Shown piece after piece: positions 1 to 28,645 of a DNA stretch of 28,645 nt. Every line of letters begins with the position of its first letter. The stretch's first letter is position 1. This DNA comes from Deinococcales bacterium. Its GTDB lineage: Bacteria; Deinococcota; Deinococci; Deinococcales; JAAFIG01. The notes under the pieces are model-generated. The model worked only from the letters and a program-made list of their open reading frames with translations, ran no database searches and was not told the origin of the DNA. The stretch covers positions 1 to 28,645 of the forward strand of contig JAAFIG010000048.1 of assembly GCA_013298595.1 (NCBI GenBank), given 5' to 3'. The translations under genes and the position numbers were made by a program.

Positions 1-113
1 GGCAGAATTTTAGTCCAACCACTCGAGAAACTGTAAATTAAAGTCATTAAAATTGGCATGGTTAAATACAGCAACAACGCAATTAAAATGCCGCGTCGCA
101 AAAAGTTCATCAT
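1..113 (-). CDS. ABC transporter permease, second subunit (N-terminal fragment)
   Basis: This is the first 37 codons of a second inner-membrane permease, cut by the window edge. It begins MMNFLRRGILIALLLYLTMP, a short basic stretch followed by a hydrophobic first membrane segment, as in PotC/ThiP/FbpB-type permeases. Its first ATG (113-111) overlaps the TGA stop of the upstream permease (112-110) as ATGA, so the two are probably translationally coupled and form a heterodimeric channel. A second ATG directly follows, so the exact start is uncertain by one codon. The ATPase gene would be expected further left, outside the window. The permease role rests on context and hydrophobicity, since no EAA loop is visible in the fragment. 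Confidence 0.75.
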   Translation of the reverse strand, partial: MMNFLRRGILIALLLYLTMPILMTLIYSFSSGWTKIL

Positions 114-943
114 CCTGCACCACCTTGTAAAGCTGCCGACCAGCGTCTTGAGCTGCGATAAAGCACCAAGCAGACCAGTAAAACCACTGCCATCATGCAA
201 GAAAGAGCTGCGGCTGCACCTGGGTCGTAACCCACTTGCCCAGAAACCTGAAAACCAATTTGGGTTGGTAACAAATTAATACTGCCTTGCGATAAAGCAT
301 ACACCGTGGCATAGGCTCCAAAAGAATTAGCAAACAGCAATGCCAACGAACCCAACAACGAAGGTAACAACACAGGAATACCAACTCGCCACCAGAATAA
401 CAACGGTGATGCCCCAAGCCCTCGAGCTGCCTCGAGCCAATCTTTTTGAATCGCGGCGAAGGCGGGTAGCATTAACACAGTCATCAGGGGCCATTGAAAA
501 TACAAGTACACCAAATGCAAATTCTGTCGTTTATAAATATCTATTGTCTCGAGATTTAAAGCTTGTAACACAGCATTAAAAACCCCAGTTGTACCCAGTA
601 ACACCACAAAAGCAAATGCCAATGGAACACCAGCAAAATTGGCAGCAACACCACTCAAACCAGCTAATAAACGCTGAGTTAAAGCTTTACTACGCCATAA
701 CGCCCCAGCCGTTAATGTTCCCAGAATTCCACCTTCAAGTGCACTTTGAAAACTTAGTGTCACACTATTGCCTAGTGCTCGAAAAAAAAGTGTTTTAGTG
801 GCTTCTGCCCAATGCTCGAGTGTAAAACCAGTTTTGTTGGTAAAAGCTGTTAAAACCAAAAAAGCCCCTGGTAAAACCAGAAACAGTATTAAAAAAAGCA
901 TAAAACTAAAGGCTATCAGTATCGAAACAAAACGTAAATTCAT
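110..943 (-). CDS. ABC transporter permease, binding-protein-dependent importer
   Basis: This 277-residue integral membrane protein has about six hydrophobic segments. It carries the cytoplasmic EAA coupling loop EAARGLGASPLLFWWRVGIP near residues 171-190, the site that contacts the ATPase in type I importers. Length and motif fit the permease family used for iron(III), polyamine, thiamine or phosphonate uptake; the substrate cannot be told. The ATG at 943 has a Shine-Dalgarno GAGG that is part of a CTCGAGG sequence 6 nt upstream. The gene follows the binding-protein gene, with a strong hairpin between them that probably lowers permease expression relative to the binding protein. Its stop overlaps the start of the next permease. 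Confidence 0.88.
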   Translation of the reverse strand: MNLRFVSILIAFSFMLFLILFLVLPGAFLVLTAFTNKTGFTLEHWAEATKTLFFRALGNSVTLSFQSALEGGILGTLTAGALWRSKALTQRLLAGLSGVAANFAGVPLAFAFVVLLGTTGVFNAVLQALNLETIDIYKRQNLHLVYLYFQWPLMTVLMLPAFAAIQKDWLEAARGLGASPLLFWWRVGIPVLLPSLLGSLALLFANSFGAYATVYALSQGSINLLPTQIGFQVSGQVGYDPGAAAALSCMMAVVLLVCLVLYRSSRRWSAALQGGAG

Positions 944-966
944 AGGATACCTCGAGCTGAATAAAG

Positions 967-1000
967 AAAAGAGGATGAGATTTTTAGCTCATCCTCTTTT
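967..1000 (-). terminator. Intra-operon terminator/attenuator hairpin after the binding-protein gene
   Basis: A perfect 13-bp stem (967-979 with 988-1000) with an 8-nt loop lies 10 bp past the binding-protein stop codon. Read on the minus strand it ends in a T-rich tract. In its place between binding protein and permease it probably gives partial termination or 3'-end protection of the binding-protein mRNA. Confidence 0.8.
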
Positions 1001-1009
1001 CTCGAGATT

Positions 1010-2071
1010 TTATTGTTCTACAACATTGGTTGCCCACAGTTCGCCAATATTTTTAACGATGTCAGGCATTTGCTTCCAAGCTTTAATTGGTACGACTTTG
1101 TTGTATTGGAAAGCAGGAATCATTTTTGCACGAATGCTGGCGGGTAAGTTCTTACGGATTTTCTCGCGGATAGGTTGAGCGCCGCCTTCGGCGTACATAC
1201 GTTGACCTTCGTCGGAGAAAAGGAATTCCATAAACAACTTAGCCACATTTGGACGAGCCGTAAAAGCATTAATGACTGGGGCATACGGTCCTGTGGTGGT
1301 GGCATCCAGAGGGATACGGATTTCGATATTGATATTGTTATCGGCTAATTGGCGCTTAAAGTTTAAGCCGTTGTAATCCCAGTTAATACCAATGGCCACT
1401 TCGCCTTTTTGAATATTTGCCAGCGATGGCACAGTGGGTAATAAATTACCTGATTTTTGTAATTTTGCAAAGAAATCAATACCCGGTTTGACATTGGTTT
1501 CCGAACCACCAAATGCCATAGCTGCTGCAATCACAGCGTATTGTGCATTGGCGGCTTTACGAGGATCGTTAACTGCAATTTTGCCTTTGTATTCGGGGCG
1601 TAACAAATCGCGCCAAGTACGAGGAATGGTTTTGACCAATTTAGGATTTACGACAAAAGCTATTGCGCCATAATAAGCAGCCGCATAATGACCATCTGCA
1701 CCTTTTGCCCAATCAGGGATTTCACTCCACTTACTGTTTTTATATGGCATAAACGCGCCTTGCTCGGTACCAATTGGACCAAATGCCAAGCCGACATCGC
1801 CAACATCGGCAACGGGTGCATTTTTCTCGGCTAAGAATTTAGCGATTTCCTCAGCACTGCTCATATCGGTATCGGTTTGTGTAACACCATATTTGCTGGT
1901 GAATACCTGCCACATCTTCTCGTAATTTAACCAATCATTGGGAATGCCATAACTGACGATTTTACCTTCTTGCTTAGCTTTGGCTGCTAATTCAGAAATG
2001 GTATCACCTGCCATGACTGCACCAAGACCTGTGAATAAAACTGCGCCGAACAACATCGTGGATTTCTTCAT
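1010..2071 (-). CDS. ABC transporter periplasmic substrate-binding protein
   Basis: This 353-residue protein opens with a Sec signal peptide: basic MKKS, a hydrophobic core, and likely cleavage after AVMA near residue 21. There is no lipobox Cys, so it is probably a soluble periplasmic protein. The body has the bilobal family 1 extracellular solute-binding pattern, with the TWRDLLRPEYKGKIAVNDP hinge segment near residues 152-170 that is typical of iron(III)/polyamine/phosphonate binding proteins. The ligand is not predictable here. The start ATG at 2071 has a strong Shine-Dalgarno GAGGAGG, overlapping a CTCGAG site. It is the first gene of the minus-strand importer operon. Oddly, the gene has no internal CTCGAG, unlike nearly every other gene in the window. 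Confidence 0.88.
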   Translation of the reverse strand: MKKSTMLFGAVLFTGLGAVMAGDTISELAAKAKQEGKIVSYGIPNDWLNYEKMWQVFTSKYGVTQTDTDMSSAEEIAKFLAEKNAPVADVGDVGLAFGPIGTEQGAFMPYKNSKWSEIPDWAKGADGHYAAAYYGAIAFVVNPKLVKTIPRTWRDLLRPEYKGKIAVNDPRKAANAQYAVIAAAMAFGGSETNVKPGIDFFAKLQKSGNLLPTVPSLANIQKGEVAIGINWDYNGLNFKRQLADNNINIEIRIPLDATTTGPYAPVINAFTARPNVAKLFMEFLFSDEGQRMYAEGGAQPIREKIRKNLPASIRAKMIPAFQYNKVVPIKAWKQMPDIVKNIGELWATNVVEQ

Positions 2072-2191
2072 ACTTCCTCCTCGAGCTTGTACCCAACCGT
2101 CAGTCTAAAATTGTGTTGTCAGCACTTTATCATGGAATCTTCATTGAATGCTTGCTCTTGCGGGAAGGCTGGGTGAGCGGTGTAGCATACA

Positions 2192-2199
2192 AGAGGAGG
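2192..2199 (+). promoter_or_regulatory. Strong Shine-Dalgarno of the MIP channel gene
   Basis: AGAGGAGG lies 7 nt before the ATG at 2207 and fixes that start. No convincing -35/-10 pair is visible between 2072 and 2191. Confidence 0.7.
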
Positions 2200-2206
2200 A
2201 ATTTAT

Positions 2207-2857
2207 ATGGCAGCTTTTATAGCAGAATTTATTGGCACATTTGCACTAACACTGATTGGTGCAGGCGCAATTATCAATGGCGGAGCAGGATTGGTTGGTG
2301 TGGCACTGGCACATGGTTTAGTGATTGTGGTTTTTGGTACGGCACTCGGTGCAATCTCAGGAGGACATTTCAACCCAGCTGTCAGTGTGGCGATGCTGGC
2401 AACAGGTCGAATAGACCCGATTAAAGCCCTTGGTTATATTGTCTCACAAGTGCTCGGAAGCATTGTTGCTGCCTTTATCCTGACCCAAGTATTCCCAGCC
2501 GAAGCCATCACCACCGCAAAACTTGGGACACCACTGCTCTCGAGTACGACTTCGGTTGGTGCAGGCATTATTCTCGAGTTTATCACCACATTTTTCCTAG
2601 TCACTGCAATTTTTGGTACGGCTGTTGATGCTCGAGCACCTAAACTCGGCGCATTATTTATTGGGCTAACTGTCACACTAGATATTCTGTGTATTGGACC
2701 AATGACAGGCGCTGCTATGAACCCAGCCCGGCAAATTGGACCTGCGTTAATTGGTGGCTATCTCGAGAATTTCTGGTTGTATTGGATTGCGCCAATTGCT
2801 GGTGCGGTAGCCGCCGCCTTTTTATACGATGGTTTGTTTCATAAGCGCACCGATTAA
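2207..2857 (+). CDS. MIP-family channel (aquaporin-type)
   Basis: This 216-residue, six-helix major intrinsic protein carries both half-helix motifs: SGGHFNPAV with NPA at 56-58, and MNPAR with NPA at 172-174. It would sit in the inner membrane as a tetramer passing water or small neutral solutes. Aligned by hand to E. coli AqpZ, the aromatic/arginine filter positions Phe43, His174, Thr183 and Arg189 correspond to His36, Ile160, Ala169 and Arg175. That set is unlike AqpZ and resembles plant tonoplast intrinsic proteins, some of which pass ammonia, urea or hydrogen peroxide. Hence no aqpZ symbol is assigned. The gene is divergent from the importer operon and convergent with murA, with which it shares a terminator. 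The ATG at 2207 is fixed by a strong Shine-Dalgarno. Confidence 0.92.
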   Translation: MAAFIAEFIGTFALTLIGAGAIINGGAGLVGVALAHGLVIVVFGTALGAISGGHFNPAVSVAMLATGRIDPIKALGYIVSQVLGSIVAAFILTQVFPAEAITTAKLGTPLLSSTTSVGAGIILEFITTFFLVTAIFGTAVDARAPKLGALFIGLTVTLDILCIGPMTGAAMNPARQIGPALIGGYLENFWLYWIAPIAGAVAAAFLYDGLFHKRTD

Positions 2858-2873
2858 TGGTTCGAGTCAACAA

Positions 2874-2900
2874 AAAAGAGCAGCCGCAAGCTGCTCTTTT
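2874..2900. terminator. Bidirectional terminator between the MIP gene and murA
   Basis: A perfect 11-bp stem (2874-2884 with 2890-2900), loop CGCAA, has an A run on the left and a T run on the right. It lies between the convergent stops at 2857 (plus) and 2913 (minus) and can serve both genes. Confidence 0.9.
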
Positions 2901-2912
2901 AATTTCTCTTGA

Positions 2913-4223
2913 TTATGCAACTTGGGCAAAGGCTAGTTCATCACGGACAACATGCACACCAATGCTGGTCAAGCGTTCAACGAGGCGCTCGTACCCACGG
3001 TTAAGATATTGCACACCTTCGATATGGGTTTCGCCTTCGGCAGCCGATGCAGCAATCACCAAAGCAGCTCCAGCCCGAATATCAGCAGCTTTGACAGGAG
3101 CACCTGTTAATCTCGAGCCTTCGATCAAAATGCTGTGATCTAAGACTTCGGTTTTTGCGCCTAAACGGTTGAGTTCGGCGCTGTACCCAAAGCGGGTGGT
3201 GTAGACAGGGTCGGTGATGCGGCTATGCCCTGATACAGTAGCGAGGTACGCTGCCATCATTGGTTGTAAATCGGTGGGGAAACCAGGGAAACTCGAGACC
3301 GTTACTGAGACGGGTTTTAAGTGATTAGAACGAGCATCCAAGTAAATGGTGGTATTGTCTAACTCGAGGATTTTGACACCACTTTCAGTTAACTTAGCGG
3401 TTAAAGCACGCATGTGGTCAACATTGGCATTGGTCAGGGTTAACTCGCCGCGAGTAGCGGCGGCTGCCAGTAAGTAGGTGCCAGCTTCAAGCCGATCTGG
3501 TATGACTGTGTATTCGCCACCTGTTAACGCTGCTACGCCTTCGATCTCGAGGGTATGACTGCCAACACCGCGAATTTTTGCGCCGAGAGTATTGAGGAAG
3601 TTGCAGAGATCTACAACGTCGGTGTCTATGCTGCAATTTTCTAAACGCACCATGCCAGTGCCGAGCACCACAGCACAAACAGCATTTTGGGTACCGCCAA
3701 CAGTCAACAGATCAAAAACAAAACGCCCAGAGAATGGGCGGTCGCGGACAGCAATAAAATCGCCGTTGTTTTCGACAATGGTAGCGCCTAATGCCCGTAA
3801 AGCTTTGATGTGTTGATCGACTGGGCGAACCCCGAAGGTGCAACCGCCTGGTTGTGGCACGCGAGCTTCACCAACTCGAGCTAGGAGTGGTCCCATGACG
3901 TTAAAACTGGCTCGCATCTTAGAAACAAGGCTGTATGGCGCTTCAACACTGGTAATTTCTGGGGCGTGAATGGTCAGGGTGTGTTCGGATTGCCACGCAA
4001 ATTTGACACCTAAGCTCGAGACGATACTGAGAATCACTTCGACATCAGATAAACGAGGAATGCCATGTAAGGTGACAGGTTCGCCGCATAGGATGCTGGC
4101 TGCAAGGATTGGTAAGGCAGCATTTTTACTTGGGTTGACGGGCAAGGTTCCCGAGATGGCGTTGCCGCCACGTATGAGTAATGGTGCGCTGGACATGGTT
4201 TTTGATTCAAATAGTGGTGGCAT
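2913..4223 (-). CDS. murA: UDP-N-acetylglucosamine 1-carboxyvinyltransferase
   Basis: MurA transfers enolpyruvate from phosphoenolpyruvate to UDP-GlcNAc, the first committed step of peptidoglycan synthesis, in the cytosol. The N-terminal loop NPSKNAALP carries the conserved Lys (about residue 33). The active-site loop PGGCTFGVRPVD has the catalytic Cys at about residue 128, so the enzyme should be fosfomycin-sensitive. The C-terminal half has the expected PDRLEAGT and FPTDLQPMM motifs. At about 436 residues it has normal length. I chose the ATG at 4223 because AAGGA lies 8 nt upstream; the ATG at 4229 would leave only 2 nt of spacing, and in-frame codons up to 4262 have no ribosome site. A promoter lies at 4301-4328. 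It is a monocistronic minus-strand gene. Confidence 0.96.
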   Translation of the reverse strand: MPPLFESKTMSSAPLLIRGGNAISGTLPVNPSKNAALPILAASILCGEPVTLHGIPRLSDVEVILSIVSSLGVKFAWQSEHTLTIHAPEITSVEAPYSLVSKMRASFNVMGPLLARVGEARVPQPGGCTFGVRPVDQHIKALRALGATIVENNGDFIAVRDRPFSGRFVFDLLTVGGTQNAVCAVVLGTGMVRLENCSIDTDVVDLCNFLNTLGAKIRGVGSHTLEIEGVAALTGGEYTVIPDRLEAGTYLLAAAATRGELTLTNANVDHMRALTAKLTESGVKILELDNTTIYLDARSNHLKPVSVTVSSFPGFPTDLQPMMAAYLATVSGHSRITDPVYTTRFGYSAELNRLGAKTEVLDHSILIEGSRLTGAPVKAADIRAGAALVIAASAAEGETHIEGVQYLNRGYERLVERLTSIGVHVVRDELAFAQVA

Positions 4224-4300
4224 CTTCATTATCCTTTTCTCCCAAATCGGTCTGGATACCATAGTGCGAGGGAATTGCTCTCTTCGAGCAGTATGTGAGT

Positions 4301-4328
4301 ATTATACACATCAACAGCAAAATGTGAA
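4301..4328 (-). promoter_or_regulatory. Predicted murA promoter
   Basis: On the minus strand, TTCACA (4328-4323) and TATAAT (4306-4301) are separated by 16 bp, five and six matches to the sigma-70 consensus. A start near 4294 would give a leader of about 70 nt. The rest of the 190-bp intergenic region 4224-4413 holds only this and the -10 of the next plus-strand gene. Confidence 0.65.
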
Positions 4329-4402
4329 AGTGGGTGATATCATACTATTACTCGAGATTACGTAGACACACAACCGTCACACGCATAGCATCAAACTCGT
4401 GG

Positions 4403-4408
4403 TACTAT
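4403..4408 (+). promoter_or_regulatory. -10 box of a probable leaderless transcript
   Basis: TACTAT ends 5 nt before the GTG at 4414, and no Shine-Dalgarno is present. This is close to the 6-nt spacing seen at ten other genes here. Confidence 0.5.
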
Positions 4409-4413
4409 AGCTT

Positions 4414-4638
4414 GTGCCTAAGAAGGAAAAAAAGCGTTTACAAGTTGTTATCAGCGATGAACAAGACGCATTACTGACCAAAGCTGCCTACGAACTGAGT
4501 AGTGCAGAACGACTTGTTTCCAAATCCGAAGTGGTTCGGTTGGCAATCGAAAAAATCAGTGCAGAACTCGAGAACAGCAGTGCACTCGAGCCATTACTGC
4601 GTCAACTTCTAGCCGAAGAAAAAGACGACGACGAATAA
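4414..4638 (+). CDS. Small ribbon-helix-helix-like protein
   Basis: This 74-residue protein has a Lys-rich N-terminus, then a short strand QVVISDEQ, then two helices ending SKSEVVRLAIEKI. That is the order of a ribbon-helix-helix (CopG/Arc/MetJ-like) DNA-binding fold, in which the strand pairs in a dimer and the SxSEVVRxAI helix is typical. The C-terminus is acidic (EEKDDDE). It starts with GTG at 4414, preceded by a TACTAT -10 and no ribosome site. No toxin gene is adjacent, so an antitoxin role is not supported; a small regulator is more likely (inference). The next gene is 46 bp downstream on the same strand. Confidence 0.7.
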   Translation: MPKKEKKRLQVVISDEQDALLTKAAYELSSAERLVSKSEVVRLAIEKISAELENSSALEPLLRQLLAEEKDDDE

Positions 4639-4670
4639 TCCAGTTTCATCGTTCTCGAGAAAAGCCCAAG

Positions 4671-4676
4671 TATAGT
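4671..4676 (+). promoter_or_regulatory. -10 box before the lipoprotein gene
   Basis: TATAGT ends 8 nt before the ATG at 4685. No Shine-Dalgarno is seen, so the leader would be at most 1-2 nt. Confidence 0.4.
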
Positions 4677-4684
4677 AACAAGCG

Positions 4685-5059
4685 ATGCGCGGCTTTTTAC
4701 TAGCTATTAGTTTGGGACTGCTCTCGAGTTGCAGTTTTACCTTTTTACCTTTTACACCACGCCCACTGGATATTCCACCCGCTATTATTATAGCCAACGA
4801 CAGTGTTTTAACTCGTAGCCAGAACAGTATTGTTTTACGGGTGAACTTGATTAAAGTACCTAACGAAGGCTATCTCAGTGCCAGCTTGTACTTAAAAACC
4901 GATCGAACTGAACGCCGCATCGCCGAAGACAGCAAACTGATTAGCACCGACTCAAGAAATCTCGAGTTTAGTTTCCCAGATGCCAAACTTGGTTCGTACC
5001 GCGCTTATTTGTTCTGGCAAGGTAGCATTGTGCGTCAATTTGAATTTACCCTCGAGTAA
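4685..5059 (+). CDS. Small predicted lipoprotein of unknown function
   Basis: The 124-residue product starts with a short hydrophobic signal and a lipobox LSSC at residues 13-16, so Cys16 would be acylated after signal peptidase II cleavage. The mature part is about 110 residues, rich in beta-prone stretches such as SIVLRVNLIKVP and YLSASLYLKT, and ends in a segment with YRAYLFWQG. It may be a small Ig-like or beta-sandwich domain, but I do not recognise a family. It lies between the ribbon-helix-helix gene and proS. A TATAGT -10 is 8 nt upstream of the ATG. Its last codons form CTCGAGTAA. Confidence 0.72.
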   Translation: MRGFLLAISLGLLSSCSFTFLPFTPRPLDIPPAIIIANDSVLTRSQNSIVLRVNLIKVPNEGYLSASLYLKTDRTERRIAEDSKLISTDSRNLEFSFPDAKLGSYRAYLFWQGSIVRQFEFTLE

Positions 5060-5077
5060 ATGCCATCTATCTGCTAA

Positions 5078-6556
<1,479 letters not shown>

Positions 6557-6680
6557 GCTGTTCGGCTGAAGCCAAAGTAATCGGAACTCGAGTACATTGC
6601 ACCTATGTTTTGCGACCTCGAGTTTCGAGAATCTGGGATTGAATAATTTCATCCGTCCCCATTCTTTTCTCGAGGTCCTT

Positions 6681-8099: not shown

Positions 8100-8127
8100 A
8101 AGAAATTGGTCGGCTCGAGTTAGATTT

Positions 8128-8652: not shown

Positions 8653-8658
8653 ACTAAA

Positions 8659-8664
8659 AGGGTA
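8659..8664 (-). promoter_or_regulatory. -10 box of the leaderless CIA30 gene
   Basis: On the minus strand TACCCT is followed by 6 nt (TTTAGT) and the ATG at 8652. The remaining region up to 8856 shows no RNA gene or clear repeat beyond two CTCGAG sites. Confidence 0.55.
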
Positions 8665-8862: not shown

Positions 8863-8868
8863 AAGCCC

Positions 8869-13204: not shown

Positions 13205-13291
<87 letters not shown>

Positions 13292-14265: not shown

Positions 14266-14348
14266 AAATCAATGCGTGCTGTATTTCATTACCAAAGTGA
14301 CTTTTATTTGAATTGATACACCATCGATTTTGGGTTTTGGGGATAACT

Positions 14349-15464
14349 GTGGATTTGCTTGTCATTGCTCCACCCGAAAGCCGTCGTGCTCGAGCGATTC
14401 AAAACAGTTTACTCGAGCGTAATTTACCGCCTGCTCGAGTGCTTTCATGGCTCGAGATTATCAACGGTGCACCACTCGAGAATCACGTTTCTGAAAATAC
14501 AATCATCAAACTTGATTCACCATCTGAGGATTGGGAAACTGATAAAAAATTGCTCGAGCTTGGGTATAACTTGTCCGACCCAGACCGCGATTATGCTCGA
14601 GTGAACACACAAAATCTCGAGTACGACCTTGGTGCGATTCTTTCCTCCAGACAGTGGTATTTGGGTTTTAACCATGTGCTCGAGAATATTAAGGCGCAAC
14701 TCGAGGTAATGGGTAAAACAGCGATGAACCACCCAGATGATATTGCTTTGATGTTTGATAAACGTGCAACTCATACCGAACTCGAGGCTGCTGGGATTCA
14801 GGTACCACCTGCGTTACTGCCAATTCACAGTTTTGATGAATTGGTTGAAGCGATGGAATTGCGGAGTTGGAATAGGGTTTTTATCAAACTCGCACATGGT
14901 TCTGGTGCGGCTGGAGTGATTGCCCTCGAGACACATAAAGGAATTTGGCAAGCCACAACCACTGTTGAAATGGCAAATGCTGGCAAGTTATATAACACTA
15001 AATGCTTGTGGAAGCATCGTAATCTCGAGATGATAAAACACCTTGTGAATGCAGTTTGTCAGCAGCGTGTGCATGTTGAAAAATGGTTACCCAAAGCCAG
15101 TTTTGAAAATAGAATCTTTGATTTGCGGGTTGTGGTGATTGCTGGAATGGCTAAGCATGTTCTGGTGCGTTCCTCGAGTGGAACAGTCACCAATCTACAC
15201 CTTGGCAACGAACGTGGCAATTGGGCTGGTGTGCGAGAAAAACTCGGGGAGACATGGCTCGAGATTCAACAAACCTGCGAAGAAACCATGATGCTTTTTC
15301 CAAATAGTTTGTATGCAGGTGTGGATGTGCTGGTACAAACCGATTGGCAGCGTCATGCCATACTCGAGGTCAATGCTTTTGGAGATTATCACCGAAATGT
15401 TTTTGTGGATGGTTTGGATACATACCAAACCCAACTTGAGTTAATCGGAATGAACAAATTTTAA
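14349..15464 (+). CDS. ATP-grasp ligase-like protein, STM4014-like
   Basis: This protein of about 371 residues has the ATP-grasp layout. The lid/ATP-binding strand VFIKLAHGSGAAGVIALE lies in the middle, EKWLPKA and DLRVVVIAG follow, and the metal-binding end is AGVDVLVQTDW and ILEVNAFGD with the conserved Glu and Asn. Such enzymes activate a carboxylate with ATP and join it to an amine or thiol. Context with the LRR gene suggests the STM4014 family of unknown substrate (inference). The start is uncertain: I chose GTG 14349, with GGGGA upstream and a clean DLLVIAPP strand; a TTG at 14313 is possible. Its stop overlaps the stop of the convergent fabH gene by 3 bp. Confidence 0.82.
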   Translation: MDLLVIAPPESRRARAIQNSLLERNLPPARVLSWLEIINGAPLENHVSENTIIKLDSPSEDWETDKKLLELGYNLSDPDRDYARVNTQNLEYDLGAILSSRQWYLGFNHVLENIKAQLEVMGKTAMNHPDDIALMFDKRATHTELEAAGIQVPPALLPIHSFDELVEAMELRSWNRVFIKLAHGSGAAGVIALETHKGIWQATTTVEMANAGKLYNTKCLWKHRNLEMIKHLVNAVCQQRVHVEKWLPKASFENRIFDLRVVVIAGMAKHVLVRSSSGTVTNLHLGNERGNWAGVREKLGETWLEIQQTCEETMMLFPNSLYAGVDVLVQTDWQRHAILEVNAFGDYHRNVFVDGLDTYQTQLELIGMNKF

Positions 15465-16444: not shown

Positions 16445-16511
16445 ACACAATGCAGTCGTGTCTCGTGGAAAAATCTTTGAGTTTGAACGCGGTTCAGTGA
16501 TTTAAGTATCC

Positions 16512-16525
16512 CTAAAATATTTTAG
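16512..16525. repeat. Perfect 14-bp palindrome between fabH and the Fur-family gene
   Basis: CTAAAATATTTTAG is fully self-complementary and is flanked by TTTAAG (16501-16506) and CTTAAA (16535-16540) in inverted orientation. It lies about 70 bp upstream of the fabH -10 box. It could be an operator or a weak hairpin. The rest of 16445-16671 shows no other supported feature. Confidence 0.35.
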
Positions 16526-16671
16526 CGTTTTTTGCTTAAACATTTCCGACTAACAGGAGTAAGGTCTGTGTATCTCAGGCTGTGATGATAGAATTGCCGC
16601 TTTTTGAAAATTCTAAAATGAGCGACCCTGCCCGTGAGGTGCGTCTTAGGGTTAAGAAAAGCGCGAGATAC

Positions 16672-19577: not shown

Positions 19578-19613
19578 TTTCCTCCTTGCCCCTCGTCCTT
19601 TTGGAGTTCTTGC

Positions 19614-20498: not shown

Positions 20499-20515
20499 TT
20501 TTTCATAATTTGCGC

Positions 20516-20521
20516 TAAACT
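20516..20521 (+). promoter_or_regulatory. -10 box of the leaderless Uma2 gene
   Basis: TAAACT is followed by 6 nt (ACACCC) and the ATG at 20528, so the gene can be transcribed independently of ftsEX. Confidence 0.55.
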
Positions 20522-20527
20522 ACACCC

Positions 20528-21109: not shown

Positions 21110-22443
21110 AAAAAATCCTACCTATTTTTGTGATCATTGCCTTAGCTTTGGTCAGTGCTTTTGCCCAAACCACCAGCCCACAATTACAGCAATTACAACG
21201 CGACTTGCGCGAACAACAACGAATCCGAGATCTTTCCACAGCTCGAGTGGGTAGTTTAGCGGCTGAAATCAAAAACCTTGGTGCTCGAGAACGCAACTTT
21301 AGTAATCAAGTGCAAACCTTATCAAAGCGCTTAACTAAACTCGAGCAGGAACGGGTGATTACGCAACAGCAATTAGCTAAAACCGAGGATAAAAGCCAGA
21401 GTTTATCGCTCGAGATTCAAATGCTTGAAGCAAAAATTGCTTACGGCAAAGAGCAACTGGCTAAATTAATTATTACTTTAGATCGTGAACGCAGTAATCG
21501 GTACGTCAAACTTGTGGTCAGAGCCGAAAATGCTTTTGATTTAGCAGTCAAAGCCAAGGATTTAGATACCATTCAAGATGTCAACTTAAACGTAATTAAC
21601 GAATTACAAGTCAATACTGCTTTGCTGACCAATAAAAACCAGCAATTTATTGCAGTCATTGCCAAACTTAACCAATACCAACGTATTCTCGAGCAGAAAA
21701 AAGCCGAAATCAATAAGAACCGTGCCACCTTAAATGCCAATATTGTAGAGTTACAAAAAACCAGAGCGGGTCGTAAATCCTTACAACTCCAAGCCATTGA
21801 AAGTGCCCAAGCTGCCAGTGCTAATGCCTCGAGTTTATTCTCGGGTATTGTTTCCGAGCGTAACCGCTTAGCCGAAATTCGTCGGCAAAAAGCCCTTGAA
21901 GCCCAGCGTCGCCGCGAAGCCGAAGCTCGCCGCCAACGTGAAGAAGCAGCCCGAATTGCCCGAATCCGAAGCGAGAATGCTCGGCAAAGAGCCGCAGAAC
22001 TCGAGAAACGCAGACAAACACAAGCTCAAGTACAAATTGCGCGAGTTGAACCAATTGCCTTGCCAGCCAGTGTCTCAAGATTTCAGTTTCCAATGCCTGG
22101 TGGCAGTATCGCCTCTGATTTTGGTTCAGAAGGCAATGATTACATGACCATTCAAGGGTCGGCTGGTAGTAGTGTGACAGCGGCGGCTGATGGCACAGTA
22201 TCTCGAGTCACCACGATTGGGGCTAATTATGGGTATTTTGTGGTGATTGCCCATACCAGCGATTTGACCAGTTTGATTACCTATTATGGCAATTTACAAT
22301 ACCCAATTGTTGAAGTTGGACAAAGTGTTCGTGCAGGGCAAGTGATTGGCAATGTTGGTGGTGGTGCGTTATTTCCGAACAACGAACTGCATTTTTATGT
22401 GGCACGTAATGGGTACAACGTCAACCCAAGACCATATCTATAA
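21106..22443 (+). CDS. EnvC-like murein hydrolase activator (coiled coil plus degenerate LytM/M23)
   Basis: The 445-residue protein has a Sec signal peptide (MKKILPIFVIIALALVSAFA) and a long Gln/Glu/Arg-rich coiled coil at about residues 20-310, with a highly basic stretch near 255-300. A C-terminal LytM domain begins FPMPGGSIASDFGSEGND. The zinc-binding pattern of active M23 peptidases is broken: the first His-x(3)-Asp motif is absent, with DYMTIQG in its place, and the second motif reads TYYGNL instead of an HLH-type sequence. Only ELHFYV is kept. This matches EnvC, which is not itself a hydrolase but activates amidases under FtsEX control. The ATG at 21106 overlaps the Uma2 stop and has GAGG within CTCGAGG upstream. 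Confidence 0.9.
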   Translation: MKKILPIFVIIALALVSAFAQTTSPQLQQLQRDLREQQRIRDLSTARVGSLAAEIKNLGARERNFSNQVQTLSKRLTKLEQERVITQQQLAKTEDKSQSLSLEIQMLEAKIAYGKEQLAKLIITLDRERSNRYVKLVVRAENAFDLAVKAKDLDTIQDVNLNVINELQVNTALLTNKNQQFIAVIAKLNQYQRILEQKKAEINKNRATLNANIVELQKTRAGRKSLQLQAIESAQAASANASSLFSGIVSERNRLAEIRRQKALEAQRRREAEARRQREEAARIARIRSENARQRAAELEKRRQTQAQVQIARVEPIALPASVSRFQFPMPGGSIASDFGSEGNDYMTIQGSAGSSVTAAADGTVSRVTTIGANYGYFVVIAHTSDLTSLITYYGNLQYPIVEVGQSVRAGQVIGNVGGGALFPNNELHFYVARNGYNVNPRPYL

Positions 22444-23212
22444 TCGAGTACGATTCTGGTTTGCCTTCCTTAAATGCCAACACACTGTCATAACCAACAG
22501 CTCGAGCCATGCTTAAAGCTTGGTTGAAATCGGCACCCACATGTTCGGGTTGATGAGCATCCGAACCCAATACCAATGGAATGCCTCTCTCAAAGGCAGC
22601 TTGTAAAATATGAGCGCTTGGATGTGGCGCACCAACTTCGCCACGCAACCCAGAAGTATTAAAATCTAAAGCTAAACCATGCTTGGCAATGACATCCAGC
22701 ACAGGTAAAACCAACTCGAGATGTTCGTCAGGTGCGACAGTCCAACGCAAAGGTAAGTCCAAATGCCCAATGGCATTGTATAAACCAGTTTGTGCGGCTT
22801 GTGTCACCAAATCATAATAGGTTGCCCAGTACGCTTGTAAATCTGCGGCTAGAGGTGCAACGCCATACATTAAATCGGCAACTTGGTGAACACTGCCAAT
22901 ACAATAATCCCAGTTGTACTGCTCAAGTAAACTTGCACTAAAAGCTTCAATACCAGGGATAAAATCCATTTCTAAACCACAACGCACCTCGAGTTCTTCG
23001 GCATTCATCACTCGAGCGGCATAAATCATTTCGCGGTATTTGAGGAGTTCATCATCTCTTAGCCGAACATGGGCATTGGCATTGTTAGGTAAAGGCATAT
23101 GTTCAGTAAAGCAAATACCAGTAAACCCCTGACGAATAGCACTAAAGGCATACTCGAGTGGGCTACCAATTGCATGGTGACAAAGAACAGTGTGCATATG
23201 AGAGTCGAACAT
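22421..23212 (-). CDS. PHP-domain phosphatase, histidinol-phosphatase (HisJ/HisK) type
   Basis: This 263-residue cytosolic enzyme has the PHP metal-ligand series in order: DSHMHT at the N-terminus, FTEHMP, GLEMDF, IGSVHQ, NAIGHLD and GSDAH near the C-terminus. This trinuclear site is typical of polymerase and histidinol-phosphatase family hydrolases, and the size fits histidinol-phosphatase (histidine biosynthesis) best. No other his gene is present, so another phosphoester substrate is possible. The ATG at 23212 has TACACT exactly 6 nt upstream. Its 3' end overlaps the convergent LytM gene by 23 bp (22421-22443). Confidence 0.9.
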   Translation of the reverse strand: MFDSHMHTVLCHHAIGSPLEYAFSAIRQGFTGICFTEHMPLPNNANAHVRLRDDELLKYREMIYAARVMNAEELEVRCGLEMDFIPGIEAFSASLLEQYNWDYCIGSVHQVADLMYGVAPLAADLQAYWATYYDLVTQAAQTGLYNAIGHLDLPLRWTVAPDEHLELVLPVLDVIAKHGLALDFNTSGLRGEVGAPHPSAHILQAAFERGIPLVLGSDAHQPEHVGADFNQALSMARAVGYDSVLAFKEGKPESYSIIDMVLG

Positions 23213-23218
23213 AGTGGT

Positions 23219-23224
23219 AGTGTA
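23219..23224 (-). promoter_or_regulatory. -10 box of the leaderless PHP gene
   Basis: On the minus strand TACACT is followed by 6 nt (ACCACT) and the ATG at 23212. Confidence 0.6.
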
Positions 23225-23307
23225 CTCGAGAAAAGCGGTATCTCTTGTGCATTTTCAGTTTGCGCGATAATTTTGGACTCGAGATAAAAGAGTGGTAACT
23301 AAGCCAT

Positions 23308-23336
23308 TTGTCATACAGTTAATGTGTGTTTAGAAC
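23308..23336 (+). promoter_or_regulatory. Candidate folE2 promoter
   Basis: TTGTCA (23308-23313) and TAGAAC (23331-23336) are 17 bp apart. Transcription from near 23343 would give a leader of about 210 nt before the ATG at 23554. Confidence 0.45.
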
Positions 23337-23429
23337 AGCAAATGCTCAGGTCTGCATGATGGGCTACAAGAAACTTGTATTGGTAGCATCTGTGTTTGGG
23401 GTTGTAAAGGCGCACAATACCGCTCGTGG

Positions 23430-23548
23430 CTTGAGTTCAAGACACTCAAGTTTTGTGAAAAACTTGGCATCCTTCACCCAGTTCACTTGACTTCCCGAGG
23501 TTGCAGGTGAACGAACCCCGATGGGCGCATTTCCCATCGAGAAAGAGG
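23430..23548 (+). promoter_or_regulatory. Structured folE2 leader, possible cis-regulatory RNA
   Basis: The 341-bp gene-free stretch 23213-23553 ends in a series of perfect stems. Stem 1 is CTTGAGT/ACTCAAG (23430-23450). Stem 2 is AAGTTTT/AAAACTT (23448-23465), which shares 3 nt with stem 1 so the two exclude each other. Stem 3 is GTTCAC/GTGAAC (23481-23512). Stem 4 is CGATGGG/CCCATCG (23519-23539), 4 nt before the Shine-Dalgarno AGAGG (23544-23548). I do not recognise a known riboswitch class. From 23225 to 23429 I see only the candidate promoter and two CTCGAG sites. Confidence 0.45.
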
Positions 23549-23553
23549 TTCTT

Positions 23554-24570
23554 ATGAGCGTTTTGCAAATCCTCGCTAGTCAACAAATAACGTCTCCGAC
23601 CTTCAAAAAAGCGTATTTGTTTAAAAATACCAGTGGTGCCGAACCTGTAATTGCTCGCAGTTACGATAAAGCATTCCGCCCCACACCCAGCTACATTGCT
23701 GGTTTGCCAGACATGACCGAAACAATTAACGGCATAGATGGCGCAAACGTTGCCATTCAACAAGTTGGCATTAGCGGCTTTAAGTTACCCCTCAAATTTG
23801 CCACCCAAACAGGCGAAACCCTGACTCTCGAGGCTCGAGTTACAGGTACGGTTTCGCTTGAGGCAGATAAAAAAGGTATCAACATGAGCCGCATCATCCG
23901 TAATTTCTACGGACACCGCAACGAAGTCTTTAGCCTCAATACATTAGAAACTATTTTGCGTGACTACCACGAGAATATCGGTGGTTTCCAAGCTCGAGTT
24001 AAAGTTGGATTTTCTTATCCACAACTTGTACCCAGCCTGCGCAGTGGACTCGAAGGGTACCAATTTTATGCTGCCAGTTACGAAGCCAGTTTAGATAGGC
24101 ACGGACGTATCCGCAGATATATCGAACTGGATTTTGTTTACTCGAGTGCCTGCCCATGCAGTGCCGAACTTGCCGAGCATGCCCGCGATACCCGAGGCGC
24201 ATATGCCATTCCTCATAGCCAACGCAGCAAAGCCCGAGTCCGTGTTGAAGTTAGCCCCGATATGGAATTATCACTCGAGGACTTAATCCAACACCTTCGC
24301 AACGGCTTAGTCACCGAAACCCAAGTGATGGTTAAACGCGAAGACGAACAGGCTTTTGCCGAGCTGAACGGTGCACATGTCAAATTTGTTGAAGATGCCG
24401 CTCGTTTGATCTACCAAGAACTCGAGCAAGACATTCGCATCCGCGACTTCCAAGCAGTTTGTAGCCACCTCGAGAGTCTGCACTCACATGATGCCGTCAG
24501 TGTCATTGCCAAAGGCGTACCAGGTGGTATGAGCGCCGAATTTACCGATTTTGCCACGCTTGTTTGCTAA
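23554..24570 (+). CDS. folE2: GTP cyclohydrolase I, FolE2 type (type IB)
   Basis: FolE2 converts GTP to dihydroneopterin triphosphate, the first step of folate (and, in some bacteria, queuosine) synthesis. The 338-residue protein has the FolE2/MptA tunnel-fold pattern, with the metal-binding [13 protein letters not shown] (CPCS at about residues 200-203), FGxH-like segments YGHRNEVF, and a C-terminal [12 protein letters not shown] region. The frame is open from 23521, but ATG 23554 has AGAGG 5 nt upstream and opens at [11 protein letters not shown]; upstream codons lie in the leader hairpin. FolE2 can use metals other than zinc and is often made under zinc limitation. I see no clear Zur site. 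A strong terminator follows. Confidence 0.95.
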
Positions 24571-24586
24571 TTACAGTTCACAATAG

Positions 24587-24616
24587 AAAAGACGAAGGTT
24601 TATGCCTTCGTCTTTT
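24587..24616 (+). terminator. folE2 terminator
   Basis: A perfect 12-bp stem AAAAGACGAAGG/CCTTCGTCTTTT (24587-24598 with 24605-24616), loop TTTATG, lies 17 bp after the stop codon. The MITE-like element begins right behind it. Confidence 0.9.
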
Positions 24617-24754
24617 AATTCAATAGTTCGGTAACTTTCCAAGGGGAAATTAAATTTATATCGTCCTATAGGGCGAATACAGAGGTTCGCCCCTACGAAG
24701 CCTAAATGCGTCACAGACGCAAAAAATCAAAAACTTACCGAACTATTGTTAATT
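24615..24754. mobile_element. MITE-like element with 18-bp inverted repeats and a 6-bp direct repeat
   Basis: CAATAGTTCGGTAACTTT (24621-24638) matches the reverse complement of 24731-24748 at 17 of 18 positions. TTAATT flanks the 128-bp unit on both sides (24615-24620 and 24749-24754), as a target duplication would. Inside are two hairpins: GGGCGAA/TTCGCCC (24671-24692) and TGCGTC/GACGCA (24708-24721). There is no coding sequence, so any movement would need a transposase elsewhere. The unit contains no CTCGAG. It sits between the folE2 terminator and the stop codon of the minus-strand fusion gene. The AT-rich direct repeat could be chance, so the mobile nature is likely but not proven. Confidence 0.65.
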
Positions 24755-26497
24755 TTAATTCACACTGCTCGAGCTTCGCACCAATTCAATTGGCACAGCG
24801 GGAGCATCTACCCGCTCGAGTACTGTAAACCCGAGTCGAGCAGCTTCTTGAACGAAGTAATTAATATTCTCGGTTTTGGTGGTTTCGCCCAAAGAAACCC
24901 GCTCATAGGCTTTATTGGCTGCAATAATCAGGGTTTCTGCTAAACAAGCAGGCACATTCCCCTTACCAAAATCGAGCTTGCCATCTGCCCAACCATTAGG
25001 TGCATTCATACTGCCGGGGGGTTGCACCACACCACCAGGAATTAAACGCACACCAGGCACAGATAACACACTGATATCCACATCAGCAGGGCGACCCTCA
25101 TCATAAATCCAAGCTCCCGGTTTGACATCCTTAGCAAACACCACAGGGTCAGGGTCAGACGTAGCCGTAAAAATCAAATCAGCCTCGAGACAATCGTGCG
25201 GATCTAAACTGGTCACAAACTTGGTATTTGGATAGGCTCGCTCGAGTGTGCCACGGCTTTTATCTAAACGCTCGAGATCCCGACCAATCAAAATGACTTT
25301 ACCAACTTCACCAGCCACCATTCGTGCCATACCAAACGCCACCACACCATTCGCCCCAACCACTGCCGCAGTTAAATGCTGTAAATCCTGCCCCTTGGCA
25401 CGCCAATGCTCGAGAATTTGCGGAATCGCCGCCCGAATGCTACCAGCTGTATAAGCACCACCATTTGTCACATAAATTTCGGGTACAGCCGCTTGAATAT
25501 CTAAACCCTTACGACCCACAGTGCCCCAAAAAGCCCCTAAGCCATATACACTTGCGCCGAGTTCCTTAGCTAAACGCGCCCCTTGAATAGCTCGTTTAAC
25601 TGCTAAATCGGGATTTGACTTAAAGGTTTGCGGCAAAATTGGTGCAGACAACAAAATACAACGAATTTCTTTACCATCTGAAGTGTACATACCACGCAAC
25701 TCGCCAAGTTTAAACGGACGAATAAACAAAGCCAGTTTCTCGAGATGCGAAACAGAAATAATTTTCAGATCGTACAAAGGTTTTAACCAACCAATCCGCA
25801 CCGACTTAAAAATATATTCAGGAGCCAGCGGATGAATAATAAAAGCAGCCACCACTTGGTCATCACGTTCACCAGCCACATGATGCACTTCACCAACTCG
25901 AGGTTCTGCTTGCTCGAGAATCCGTCCAATGTTTTCCTTAAATCGCCAAGCTGCCGCTGCTAATAAGCCCAGTACAGCCCAACGTGCACCCTGTGCAGAA
26001 GGTGTTAACATCACAATAACCGCAAAAGCAGTTAGAGCCGATAAAGTCCCCACAGCCACATACCGAGACCAACCAAGCATGGCAGCAAAAACAATCATTG
26101 GAATAACCGATAACCAAAAAGGCATCGCGGCAAACACAGCTAAACCAGCCAACATACCAAGCAAATACACATTGCCTCGACCGCGCACGGGGTAATATTT
26201 CTTGAAAAATAATGAAGGCGGATATTGATGCCCAATAAACCCAGCAAAAGCAGCTACCAATGCCAATTCGTTCCCCTCAAAAGGTGCAACCAAACCAACC
26301 ACAATCGCACCTTTAATAAAATCCAAAGCAAACGAAACAATCACAGCTTCATTACCCAAAATTCGTAAGGCATTCTCAAAACCAATGTTATACGAAACAG
26401 CCCGCATCGGCTCGAGACCACGGTACTTGGTGTACCAATACCCCAAAGGCAAAGCACCAACAGCATACGCCAGCAGCAAAATCAGCAGAATATCCAT
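24755..26497 (-). CDS. Fusion of a PlsY-like membrane domain and an acyl-ACP reductase-like domain
   Basis: This 580-residue protein joins two lipid-related modules. Residues 1-190 have several membrane helices and a PlsY (glycerol-3-phosphate acyltransferase) outline: ALPLGYWYTK, NIGFENALRILG, DFIKG and GHQYP. The third PlsY motif GGKGVA is replaced by RGRGNVY. Residues about 215-560 resemble cyanobacterial long-chain acyl-ACP reductase: TNGGAYTAG, Rossmann VVGANGVVAFGMA, IYDEGRPADV, IPGGVVQPPG, and ACLAE with Cys518 where the reductase has its acyl-thioester Cys. A membrane-bound fatty acyl reductase or acyl-transfer enzyme is inferred. TATAAT lies 6 nt before the second of two ATGs, so I start at 26497. 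It is divergent from the gene at 26553. Confidence 0.82.
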   Translation of the reverse strand: MDILLILLLAYAVGALPLGYWYTKYRGLEPMRAVSYNIGFENALRILGNEAVIVSFALDFIKGAIVVGLVAPFEGNELALVAAFAGFIGHQYPPSLFFKKYYPVRGRGNVYLLGMLAGLAVFAAMPFWLSVIPMIVFAAMLGWSRYVAVGTLSALTAFAVIVMLTPSAQGARWAVLGLLAAAAWRFKENIGRILEQAEPRVGEVHHVAGERDDQVVAAFIIHPLAPEYIFKSVRIGWLKPLYDLKIISVSHLEKLALFIRPFKLGELRGMYTSDGKEIRCILLSAPILPQTFKSNPDLAVKRAIQGARLAKELGASVYGLGAFWGTVGRKGLDIQAAVPEIYVTNGGAYTAGSIRAAIPQILEHWRAKGQDLQHLTAAVVGANGVVAFGMARMVAGEVGKVILIGRDLERLDKSRGTLERAYPNTKFVTSLDPHDCLEADLIFTATSDPDPVVFAKDVKPGAWIYDEGRPADVDISVLSVPGVRLIPGGVVQPPGSMNAPNGWADGKLDFGKGNVPACLAETLIIAANKAYERVSLGETTKTENINYFVQEAARLGFTVLERVDAPAVPIELVRSSSSVN

Positions 26498-26503
26498 CAT
26501 CAG

Positions 26504-26509
26504 ATTATA
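26504..26509 (-). promoter_or_regulatory. -10 box of the leaderless PlsY/reductase fusion gene
   Basis: On the minus strand a perfect TATAAT is followed by CTGATG and ATG at 26497. The first ATG (26500) is only 3 nt from the box, too close to be transcribed. Confidence 0.6.
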
Positions 26510-26540
26510 GCCCTAAACTATGAAGCCAAAACGAATAGGC

Positions 26541-26546
26541 TAGAAT
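26541..26546 (+). promoter_or_regulatory. -10 box of the leaderless gene at 26553
   Basis: TAGAAT is followed by 6 nt (ACTGCC) and ATG 26553. It lies 31 bp from the divergent TATAAT, so the -35 regions of the two promoters must overlap. Confidence 0.6.
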
Positions 26547-26552
26547 ACTGCC

Positions 26553-26783
26553 ATGACAACTCTCGAGAAAATCAGTAGCCACGAATTGGGCATGGAATTG
26601 CGGCGCAGAGGACACGCAGTGATTATTTGGTCAGCAGAAGATGTGCTCGAGACAGCACCAACATGGTCGTTTGAACAGGCAGCAAGTTGGTTAATCAAAA
26701 ACCAAAAAGCTTTTCAGGAACTCCAAGTGCAAGCAGGCAACGAAATGTTAGCTGATTTAACCTATGTTGCTGCTGCCGAGTAG
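26553..26783 (+). CDS. Small uncharacterised protein
   Basis: This 76-residue acidic soluble protein begins MTTLEKISSHELGMELRRRGHAVIIWSAEDVLETAP. It is predicted mostly helical, with one central hydrophobic strand (HAVIIW) and no signal or membrane segment. I do not recognise the family. The start is supported by a TAGAAT box exactly 6 nt before the ATG, and two in-frame CTCGAG sites (Leu-Glu) fit the coding pattern of the window. It is divergent from the PlsY/reductase fusion and convergent with the aminotransferase gene. No terminator hairpin is visible in 26784-26832. Confidence 0.65.
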   Translation: MTTLEKISSHELGMELRRRGHAVIIWSAEDVLETAPTWSFEQAASWLIKNQKAFQELQVQAGNEMLADLTYVAAAE

Positions 26784-26832
26784 CTTTCTGCAAAATGAAA
26801 TAAGAACTCCCCCAAATATTCTGAGTTTTGTT

Positions 26833-27987
26833 TTATACCTCGAGTGCCGCCCACAATGCCGCTACCCCAACCCCTCGAGTGAACTTTGCCCCACAATCTA
26901 GTAGCGCTTCCTCGAGTAATCCTGCAAAGCTCAGTGCGTCGTAACGATCAAAATGCCCCATGAATGAAATGCGACAAATTTTGTCTTTGATGCCATCTTG
27001 CCCAGTTTGTGCTCGAGCGCCGCGTTTGAGTAAGGCTTGCCAGAGTTCGCGCCCAGAAATTGGGGCTGGTGGTACGAGGGTGACACAGGCGGGACTGGGG
27101 TGCTCGGCGAAACTGCTGCAACCCAGTGCTTTGGCACACTCGAGTAAAGCATTGTTCATGGCTTTTTTATTTGCCCACCACGCCGTTATTCCGTGCTCGA
27201 GAATTTCGGCTGCAATTGGCTCGAGGCTGGCGTTTAAACCGACAATTAAATTGATGGCTGGGGTGAAGGCGGTTTCGCCACTGGCTTGGACTTTCAGTTC
27301 ACGGCGTAAATCAAAGTAATACGCCGTTGCTTGACTCGACTCGAGAATTGCTAAGGCACTTGGAGCAAGATACACAAAGGCTAATCCAGGAGGTGCACCC
27401 GTGGCTTTTTGCGAACCACTAATCACGGCATCTAAACCCCACGCCTCGAGTTGCAATTCTGCCATGCCAAGGCTGGTGATGGCATCTACCAGAATCAGAA
27501 TTTTTGGATTGACCGCTCGAGCAGCTTTGGCAATGTTCTCGAGATCGTGGAGTGCACCTGTACTGGTTTCGGAATGGGTAACAAGCAAGGCTTTGCTGTT
27601 TGGATTTGCCTCGAGCAAGGTTGTAACAGCACTGACGGGAATACTTGTACCCCACTCGAGCCGCGTTTGATGGGTGGTGTAGCCAAGGGTTTTTGCCATA
27701 TCGCCCCAGCGTTCACCGAATTTACCAGCGCTAACACTGGCAACTTCGCTACCTCGAGCAACAAGGCTGGTAAGAATCGCTTCAAATGCCCCTGTACCGC
27801 TAGCAGTCAAAATCAGGGGTTCAATCGCCTCAGAAACACCTGCCACAATACGAAGCAGTTCTCGAGCGCGTTTGACCACCACTTTGGCTTCAGGACTACG
27901 ATGATGCAATTGGCTTTGCGCCATAGCAAGTTGCACAGCAGGGCTGATTTCGACAGGACCGGGGGCGATCAGGCGTTGACGAAACAT
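26833..27987 (-). CDS. Class V aminotransferase (serine/alanine-glyoxylate type)
   Basis: This 384-residue PLP enzyme has the class V pattern: LIAPGPVEISP at the N-terminus, the SGTGAFEAILTSL cofactor-phosphate loop, LLVTHSETSTGALHDL, the VDAITSLGM strand, and Lys194 in SGSQKATGAPPGLAF as the Schiff-base lysine. Family members transfer amino groups among serine, alanine, glyoxylate and pyruvate, and some replace SerC in the phosphorylated serine pathway. The close link to serA (1 bp between stop 27989 and start 27987) makes a phosphoserine or serine transaminase likely (inference). The start is ATG 27987, with a GGTGGAG ribosome site inside the end of serA; upstream in-frame codons lie within serA. 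Confidence 0.92.
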   Translation of the reverse strand: MFRQRLIAPGPVEISPAVQLAMAQSQLHHRSPEAKVVVKRARELLRIVAGVSEAIEPLILTASGTGAFEAILTSLVARGSEVASVSAGKFGERWGDMAKTLGYTTHQTRLEWGTSIPVSAVTTLLEANPNSKALLVTHSETSTGALHDLENIAKAARAVNPKILILVDAITSLGMAELQLEAWGLDAVISGSQKATGAPPGLAFVYLAPSALAILESSQATAYYFDLRRELKVQASGETAFTPAINLIVGLNASLEPIAAEILEHGITAWWANKKAMNNALLECAKALGCSSFAEHPSPACVTLVPPAPISGRELWQALLKRGARAQTGQDGIKDKICRISFMGHFDRYDALSFAGLLEEALLDCGAKFTRGVGVAALWAALEV

Positions 27988-27988
27988 C

Positions 27989-28645
27989 TTAGAACTCCAC
28001 CACAAAAGCACTTTCAATAAAATCTTGTGCCCGAATTTGCTCGAGAATTTCGGCTGGTGGACGAGCATCTAAACCAATAGCAAATAAGGCTTTACCGCCC
28101 GGCGCATCACGTCCAAGTTGCATTCCTGCAATATTGACATTGGCTTCGCCGAGCAAACTACCGATTTTACCAACCACACCCGGTTGATCAAAGTTCGTGG
28201 CAATTAAAGCAAAGCCTTCTGGTGCAATCTCGAGGCGATAATTGCGAATACGGGTGATGCGTGGTTGGCGACCAAAGCATGTTCCTGACAAGCTGCGAAC
28301 CCGTTTGCCATCGGTGATGGTGACTTTAATTTCGTTGGCATAATCCTCAGATTCGTCAGTTTGTTTCATCGAAACAGAAATACCTGTTTCTCTGGCTAAT
28401 GCTCGAGCATTGACAAAATTTGGTACTTCAGTTGTCACCCGTTTTAAGTAACCAATCAGCACACTGGCAAACACTGGCTCGAGTTCGCTTGAATTCGCTC
28501 CACTGATATTGGTGCTGGGGAATTTGCCAGCAAATTCGACTTCAATTTCGCTGGCACTGCCAATCTCGAGTTGAGCCAGCATTGTTCCCATACGCTCGGA
28601 TAAGACCATATACGGTCCGAGTTTCTCGAGGGTATCAGCGTCAAG
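27989..28645 (-). CDS. serA: D-3-phosphoglycerate dehydrogenase, C-terminal part (partial)
   Basis: The visible 218 residues are the C-terminal third of a long-form SerA, which oxidises 3-phosphoglycerate in serine synthesis. The frame runs off the window edge with no stop; reading from 28645 it gives LDADTLEKLGPYMVLSERMG, which is the start of the intervening (ASB) domain. That domain follows (IEVEFAGKFPSTNI to RVRSLSGTCFGRQPRITRI), and then a C-terminal ACT domain at about the last 70 residues (FALIATNFDQPGVVGKIGSLL, VNIAGMQLGR). The ACT domain suggests feedback control by serine. The catalytic NAD-binding part lies outside the window. The aminotransferase gene follows by 1 bp. Confidence 0.95.
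   Translation of the reverse strand, partial: LDADTLEKLGPYMVLSERMGTMLAQLEIGSASEIEVEFAGKFPSTNISGANSSELEPVFASVLIGYLKRVTTEVPNFVNARALARETGISVSMKQTDESEDYANEIKVTITDGKRVRSLSGTCFGRQPRITRIRNYRLEIAPEGFALIATNFDQPGVVGKIGSLLGEANVNIAGMQLGRDAPGGKALFAIGLDARPPAEILEQIRAQDFIESAFVVEF

Follow-up and report, generated by a model that had tools for sequence, protein, structure and literature searches.

Introduction

HIP1 (GCGATCGC) and the alternate HIPs are palindromes of cyanobacteria, most of which occur at ~500-2500 copies per Mb, and the G-methyl-C repair model requires that the methylated site contain or overlap a GC step (Elhai 2015, PMC4390886). For CTCGAG, an orphan methylase has been described in Nocardia, where the sites are clustered near dnaA (Blow et al. 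2016, PMC4752239). Here we describe CTCGAG as a highly iterated palindrome in a family of Deinococcales without cultured members, starting from one stretch of 28,645 nt (the window). Like the cyanobacterial HIPs, it occurs in vast excess throughout a clade, both within genes and between them, and to a degree that is graded between relatives. It differs from HIP1 in its core, in its phylum and in having no GC step, while its density of ~5,900-6,600 copies per Mb exceeds that of most cyanobacterial HIPs; and, unlike for HIPs with a methylase link, a search of five Pfam families found no cognate methylase in the CTCGAG-richest genomes. With the Nocardia system it shares the hexamer and a solitary methylase, but the copies are spread genome-wide instead of lying near dnaA, and the window's own genome yielded no candidate CTCGAG methylase.

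What HIP1 does has been a puzzle for decades, and one tied to cyanobacteria. The XhoI and PaeR7I systems, which recognise CTCGAG, consist of a PF04555 nuclease and a gamma-type N6-adenine methylase. Solitary relatives of their methylase do exist in a sister genus, but no intact PF04555 nuclease was found in 36 relatives, and where restriction would predict avoidance of CTCGAG, enrichment is seen. The Neisseria DUS and Haemophilus USS are likewise short words over-represented genome-wide, but they are non-palindromic, longer and far sparser than CTCGAG is here. Within the part of the literature covered by our search, there was no report of CTCGAG iteration in Deinococcota.

Results

Abundance of CTCGAG in the window and the genome

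The window holds 192 copies of CTCGAG between positions 22 and 28630, at a mean spacing of 150 bp, where base composition predicts 6.0; a first, sequence-only reading, which had arrived at about 190 copies against five to six expected, was accurate on both. Shuffles preserving dinucleotides (n=100) gave a mean of 3.4 copies (sd 1.9, maximum 8). A maximal-order Markov model does predict 166, but this figure is circular and an unfair null, because nearly all of its 5-mers come from CTCGAG itself (2,621 of the 2,913 CTCGA 5-mers in a 429-kb genome sample). The whole genome carries 27,159 copies in 4,582,226 bases on 68 contigs, one per ~165-169 bp and ~30-fold above base composition, which bears out the strong enrichment claimed from the window; GAGCTC, of equal composition, occurs only 15 times in the entire 4.58 Mb. 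Several of the genome statistics below refer to samples of 0.43-0.55 Mb of these 4.58 Mb. The flanks of CTCGAG carry at most 0.08 bit per position, and the iterated unit is therefore exactly six bases. The features of the window are as follows.

22..28630, no strand: array of 192 copies of the CTCGAG palindrome
14389..15368, no strand: dense stretch; the gene at 14313-15464 has 16 copies, one per 72 bp
1010..2071, minus strand: gene of 353 aa without any CTCGAG, which looks like a transporter substrate-binding protein
431..436, no strand: example of codon phase 0 (Leu-Glu), in the minus-strand gene 110-943
421..426, no strand: example of codon phase 1 (nCT CGA Gnn), in the minus-strand gene 110-943
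2539..2544, no strand: example of codon phase 2 (nnC TCG AGn), in the plus-strand gene 2207-2857
4567..4659, no strand: extragenic examples, copies 4567, 4585 and 4654, ahead of the gene at 4685

The longest CTCGAG-free stretch of the window is 1001-2080. At 16503-16624 lies a copy, itself without CTCGAG, of a ~120-bp interspersed repeat that is present in more than 20 copies, at 78-92% identity, in the same-genus genome G001.

Codon phases and the effect on proteins

Within the window, 120, 33 and 22 copies lie in codon phases 0, 1 and 2, and 17 outside the listed genes, in keeping with the earlier claim that the motif occupies all phases as well as the space between genes. A 548-kb sample of the genome agrees, with 1611, 647 and 485 genic copies in the three phases and a density of one per 166 bp in coding against one per 178 bp in intergenic DNA. 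While the Leu-Glu phase makes up 59% of the genic copies in this sample, 41% are in the other phases. Furthermore, CTC and GAG are both rare codons outside CTCGAG, and GAG accounts for just 20% of Glu codons when the preceding codon is not CTC, a scarcity already remarked upon in the sequence-only reading. Codon choice was rightly excluded there as the cause, since the enrichment is not confined to Leu-Glu pairs.

The drive towards CTCGAG is strong enough to add Leu-Glu dipeptides to proteins. Our own-genome sample contains 2334 of these against 997 expected, and 1611 Leu-Glu codon pairs spelled CTCGAG against 14.8 expected, whereas the reverse dipeptide Glu-Leu is at 0.98 of expectation; Ser-Ser, which phase 2 copies encode, is at 1.5. 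From genome to genome the Leu-Glu excess tracks CTCGAG enrichment, being 2.1-2.7 where the motif is abundant and 1.5-2.0 where it is intermediate. Other genomes mostly lie close to 1, with GC-rich Rokubacteria reaching 1.4.

Two side observations concern leucine codons. Those ending in G before Glu (CTG or TTG followed by GAA) are at 0.2-0.3 of expectation in G000, a depletion exceeding what the CTCGAG drive obviously explains. The window also carries, at 13205-13291, a tRNA-Leu with anticodon GAG, which reads CTC and is conserved, with several copies in relatives.

Magnitude of the drive and the changes it opposes

The strength of the drive was taken as the odds of the site-completing synonymous codon in a near-site context relative to the same codon elsewhere, in four independent contexts (GAG after CTC, CTC before GAG, CGA in nCT_G, and TCG in C_AG). 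This gave odds ratios of 30-62 for the own genome, 23-69 for G002 and 23-44 for G003; a separate measurement put the intergenic excess over local base composition at 36-, 37- and 34-fold, respectively. Since the synonymous odds ratios match the intergenic fold in three genera, the drive acts per site and is blind to coding, and a single per-site factor accounts for both compartments. Transitions and transversions are opposed at all three distinct base-pair positions (lnOR ~2-5.8 in four genomes, against -0.04 to 0.87 in the control context, GAG after YTG). The best tolerated variant is usually A5-to-G/T2-to-C (CTCGGG/CCCGAG), and the opposition to transversion variants exceeds that to transitions by about one log unit. 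A DNA-level drive of uniform strength (log odds ~3-4) pushes sequences one step away towards CTCGAG everywhere; in population-genetic terms its size is a 2Nes of ~3-4, or an equally large conversion bias. The pressure on the site itself that had been proposed from GAG usage is supported by the densities per phase and between genes, by these odds ratios and by the lnORs of the substitution classes.

Of the gaps between copies, only those shorter than 24 bp are clearly depleted (33 of 6-15 bp, with 84 expected), which can be explained by hairpins between nearby palindromes or by steric exclusion. Beyond this, the gaps fit a site-by-site drive, and spacing as a density-controlled function was dropped.

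Spread and turnover among relatives

CTCGAG was counted in 61 genomes of the order. All four genomes of the window's family f1 (G000-G003, three genera) have 26,600-28,200 copies and, together with genus g11 of a second family f2 (G012 and G016), which is as rich, are enriched 20-30-fold. Within f2, enrichment is ~10-fold in a second genus (G008), and in a third (G004) the count matches expectation, so that the motif, as among HIPs, is shared by relatives and lost or replaced in some. Deinococcota other than the richest genomes are graded from none to ~10-fold, with up to ~9-fold in genus g13 of family f5 and ~3-fold in g7, which is probably Thermus. Named Meiothermus and Calidithermus loci show 3.6-8.2-fold enrichment, and for this reason g13, a sister genus, is probably Meiothermus or a close relative. 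The likeness to HIP1 noted from the window thus holds descriptively, for a palindrome that is ~30-fold enriched, both coding and intergenic, not codon-driven and common to relatives. Outside the phylum, several Anaerolineae/Chloroflexi loci (L206, L215, L231) have CGGCCG as their leading palindrome, at 6-9-fold, possibly a further HIP-like word.

In DNA alignments with G001, G002, G003 and G012, 56-65% of the window's CTCGAG sites are identical in the relative, compared to 12-23% of other 6-mers in the same alignments, and partners that differ by one mismatch show a several-fold deficit relative to control hexamers (5-8% versus 24-33% in the larger comparisons). At aligned Leu-Glu pairs of a same-genus pair, the phi of site presence is 0.20 (95% 0.04-0.35), with reference synonymous sites at 0.04-0.22; the presence of CTCGAG at conserved Leu-Glu pairs relaxes at roughly the pace of ordinary synonymous sites. 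The state of a site in one genome barely predicts that in the other, which shows that copies keep turning over and are re-made, not merely protected. Because synonymous divergence is near saturation, however, this result rejects strong protection only and does not discriminate between selection and biased creation.

Methylases and restriction genes

A link to methylation, and with it a solitary CTCGAG methyltransferase gene, had been envisaged from the window, and the search for one divided by clade. In the own genome neither of two candidate CTCGAG methylase families has a close relative; the XhoI/PaeR7I-type methylase has no match in G000, G001 and G003 and a distant one (31%) in G002; and a search of PF07669, PF01555, PF00145, PF02384 and PF02086, with clustering, turned up no methylase orthologue common to the CTCGAG-rich genomes (the PF05063, MT-A70, profile matched nothing, controls included, and carries no information). 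As the MAGs are 91-94% complete, the absence from all of them of a shared methylase of the scanned families is unlikely to be a gap. What does stand is a solitary XhoI/PaeR7I-type candidate in the less enriched sister genus g13, where it neighbours a Na/Ca exchanger or an amidase. In three g13 genomes these solitary enzymes are 61-69% identical to a plasmid methylase adjoining an XhoI-family nuclease (PF04555, E 1e-106, 246 aa). The other three g13 genomes tested instead have a solitary methylase of another family, whose C-terminal domain is that of M.Eco57I. Across the six genomes the two families are perfectly complementary, which suggests that they share CTCGAG specificity.

Several candidates were rejected. 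The second methylase family (L043/L266) was dropped as the sole cause, being sporadic and showing no correlation with enrichment in family f3. The solitary C5 methylase L066 (G000:C15, with relatives in G001 and G012) is unlikely to write CTCGAG, as it is ~58% identical to methylases of which one adjoins an HpaII-family nuclease, making CCGG its likely target; CCGG is avoided in the genomes that carry L066 and its relatives. Among the other own-genome methylases, several adjoin nuclease-like genes (NotI-like, GmrSD-like, PADLOC type II REase), and the remainder comprise a type IIG fusion and a D12 enzyme without known partner. The XhoI-family nuclease is absent from the own clade, and the only one in the 36 relatives is a broken one in G009 (L262, G009:C1:1090001-1100000), interrupted by in-frame stops and next to an XhoI-type methylase that looks intact, a restriction system in decay.

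Palindrome avoidance and CTCGAG-free islands

Leaving CTCGAG itself aside, the genomes rich in it (samples of G000-G003 and G012) have GC-rich 6-bp palindromes at 0.13-0.38 of Markov expectation, against 1.25-1.47 for matched non-palindromes and 0.52-0.99 for GC-rich palindromes in more than 35 other genomes. Among the rich genomes this extreme avoidance extends to nearly all such palindromes and is conserved between genera, and it correlates with CTCGAG enrichment (Spearman -0.79 over 16 Deinococcota samples, whose phylogenetic relatedness deprives the p value of independent weight). The obvious cause of the avoidance is a large number of restriction systems. The own-genome sample has 13 GGCC and 103 CCGG, with 1115 expected of each; the HpaII-like L066 may relate to the scarcity of CCGG.

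CTCGAG-free stretches above ~1.1 kb are mostly AT-rich (e.g. GC 0.27-0.39), and some hold restriction genes. These islands appear to be recent acquisitions, and their retention without CTCGAG suggests that the motif builds up after arrival and is not needed for entry. Among the viral contigs listed, mostly of GC-rich background, no phage of this clade with dense CTCGAG was recognised.

Discussion

CTCGAG very likely belongs to a HIP-like class with a DNA-level, site-autonomous drive. Whether weak selection on the individual copies is its main component, with the hexamer as a recognised genome-wide mark, we consider evenly balanced, and it is the reading we prefer. Weak selection (2Nes ~3-4) would then act on every copy, and a symmetric DNA-binding protein would read CTCGAG as a genome-wide mark; this reader would most plausibly belong to the DNA methylation, repair or recombination apparatus. 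In the sister genus the solitary XhoI/PaeR7I-type adenine methylase would be the likely writer. The opposition to every substitution class and the observed turnover are better accounted for by continuing weak selection of this size than by frozen protection or by a repair system specific to one mismatch. Counting against a selected mark is that no shared methylase or reader was found in the window's own clade. Moreover, equal coefficients in and between genes at ~27,000 sites would be unusual for selection, context-blind biased repair or conversion would yield the same odds ratios, and a strict selection equilibrium does not predict the extra log unit or so against transversions.

It is possible, though on the unlikely side, that creation is biased instead, in that methylation-linked or very-short-patch-like repair resolves mismatches to CTCGAG and the copies are a useless by-product, as in Elhai's view of HIPs. 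The uniform strength in coding and intergenic DNA agrees with this, as do the cognate-type methylase of the sister genus and the link of alternate HIPs to methylases (Elhai 2015, PMC4390886). Known short-patch repair, however, acts on one mismatch type, while here every substitution class is opposed, transversions most, and in five Pfam families no methylase shared within this clade was found. The role in mismatch repair raised from the window does not fit in its G-methyl-C form either, as CTCGAG is without the required GC step and 29-51% of copies are without a flanking GC. Rather doubtful, in turn, is a methylase-independent self mark, in which ~27,000 sites under continuing selection would be read by a symmetric DNA-binding protein and, in genomes cleared of nearly all other GC-rich 6-bp palindromes, the one that is permitted would serve as an identity tag.

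It is improbable that CTCGAG serves a competent bacterium for DNA uptake or self-recognition in the manner of DUS and USS. The density of CTCGAG is high, and Thermus and Deinococcus, related genera, are naturally transformable; but a six-base palindrome at ~6,000 copies per Mb is unlike known uptake words, and the AT-rich, apparently acquired islands are kept without the motif, restriction genes included, which leaves the preferential uptake suggested earlier with little support. Slimmer still are the chances of protection, where existing copies would be mutation cold spots, e.g. bound by protein, and so persist. This would explain the high positional conservation, but strong protection should exceed the phi of ordinary synonymous sites, and the Leu-Glu site state is nearly independent between genera, with an upper 95% limit of 0.35. 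Finally, codon usage, amino-acid pair bias or an assembly artefact is hardly credible, since despite the majority of genic copies in the Leu-Glu phase, and a mild effect being plausible in Thermus-like genomes, the equal intergenic density already refutes such bias, Glu-Leu is not enriched, CTC and GAG are rare outside the hexamer, and independent assemblies agree.

The doubling of Leu-Glu by CTCGAG has a bearing on any analysis of proteins or codons in these genomes, which also raise the question of why one palindrome is exempt and favoured while others are avoided. Deinococcota provide an independent instance that is denser, is built on a core of six bases and comes with graded relatives, and CTCGAG thereby permits tests beyond cyanobacteria alone. 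Its drive can be measured as a synonymous-codon odds ratio and set against intergenic DNA, and the agreement of the two in three genera makes the question of whether such palindromes are selected or a by-product a numerical one.
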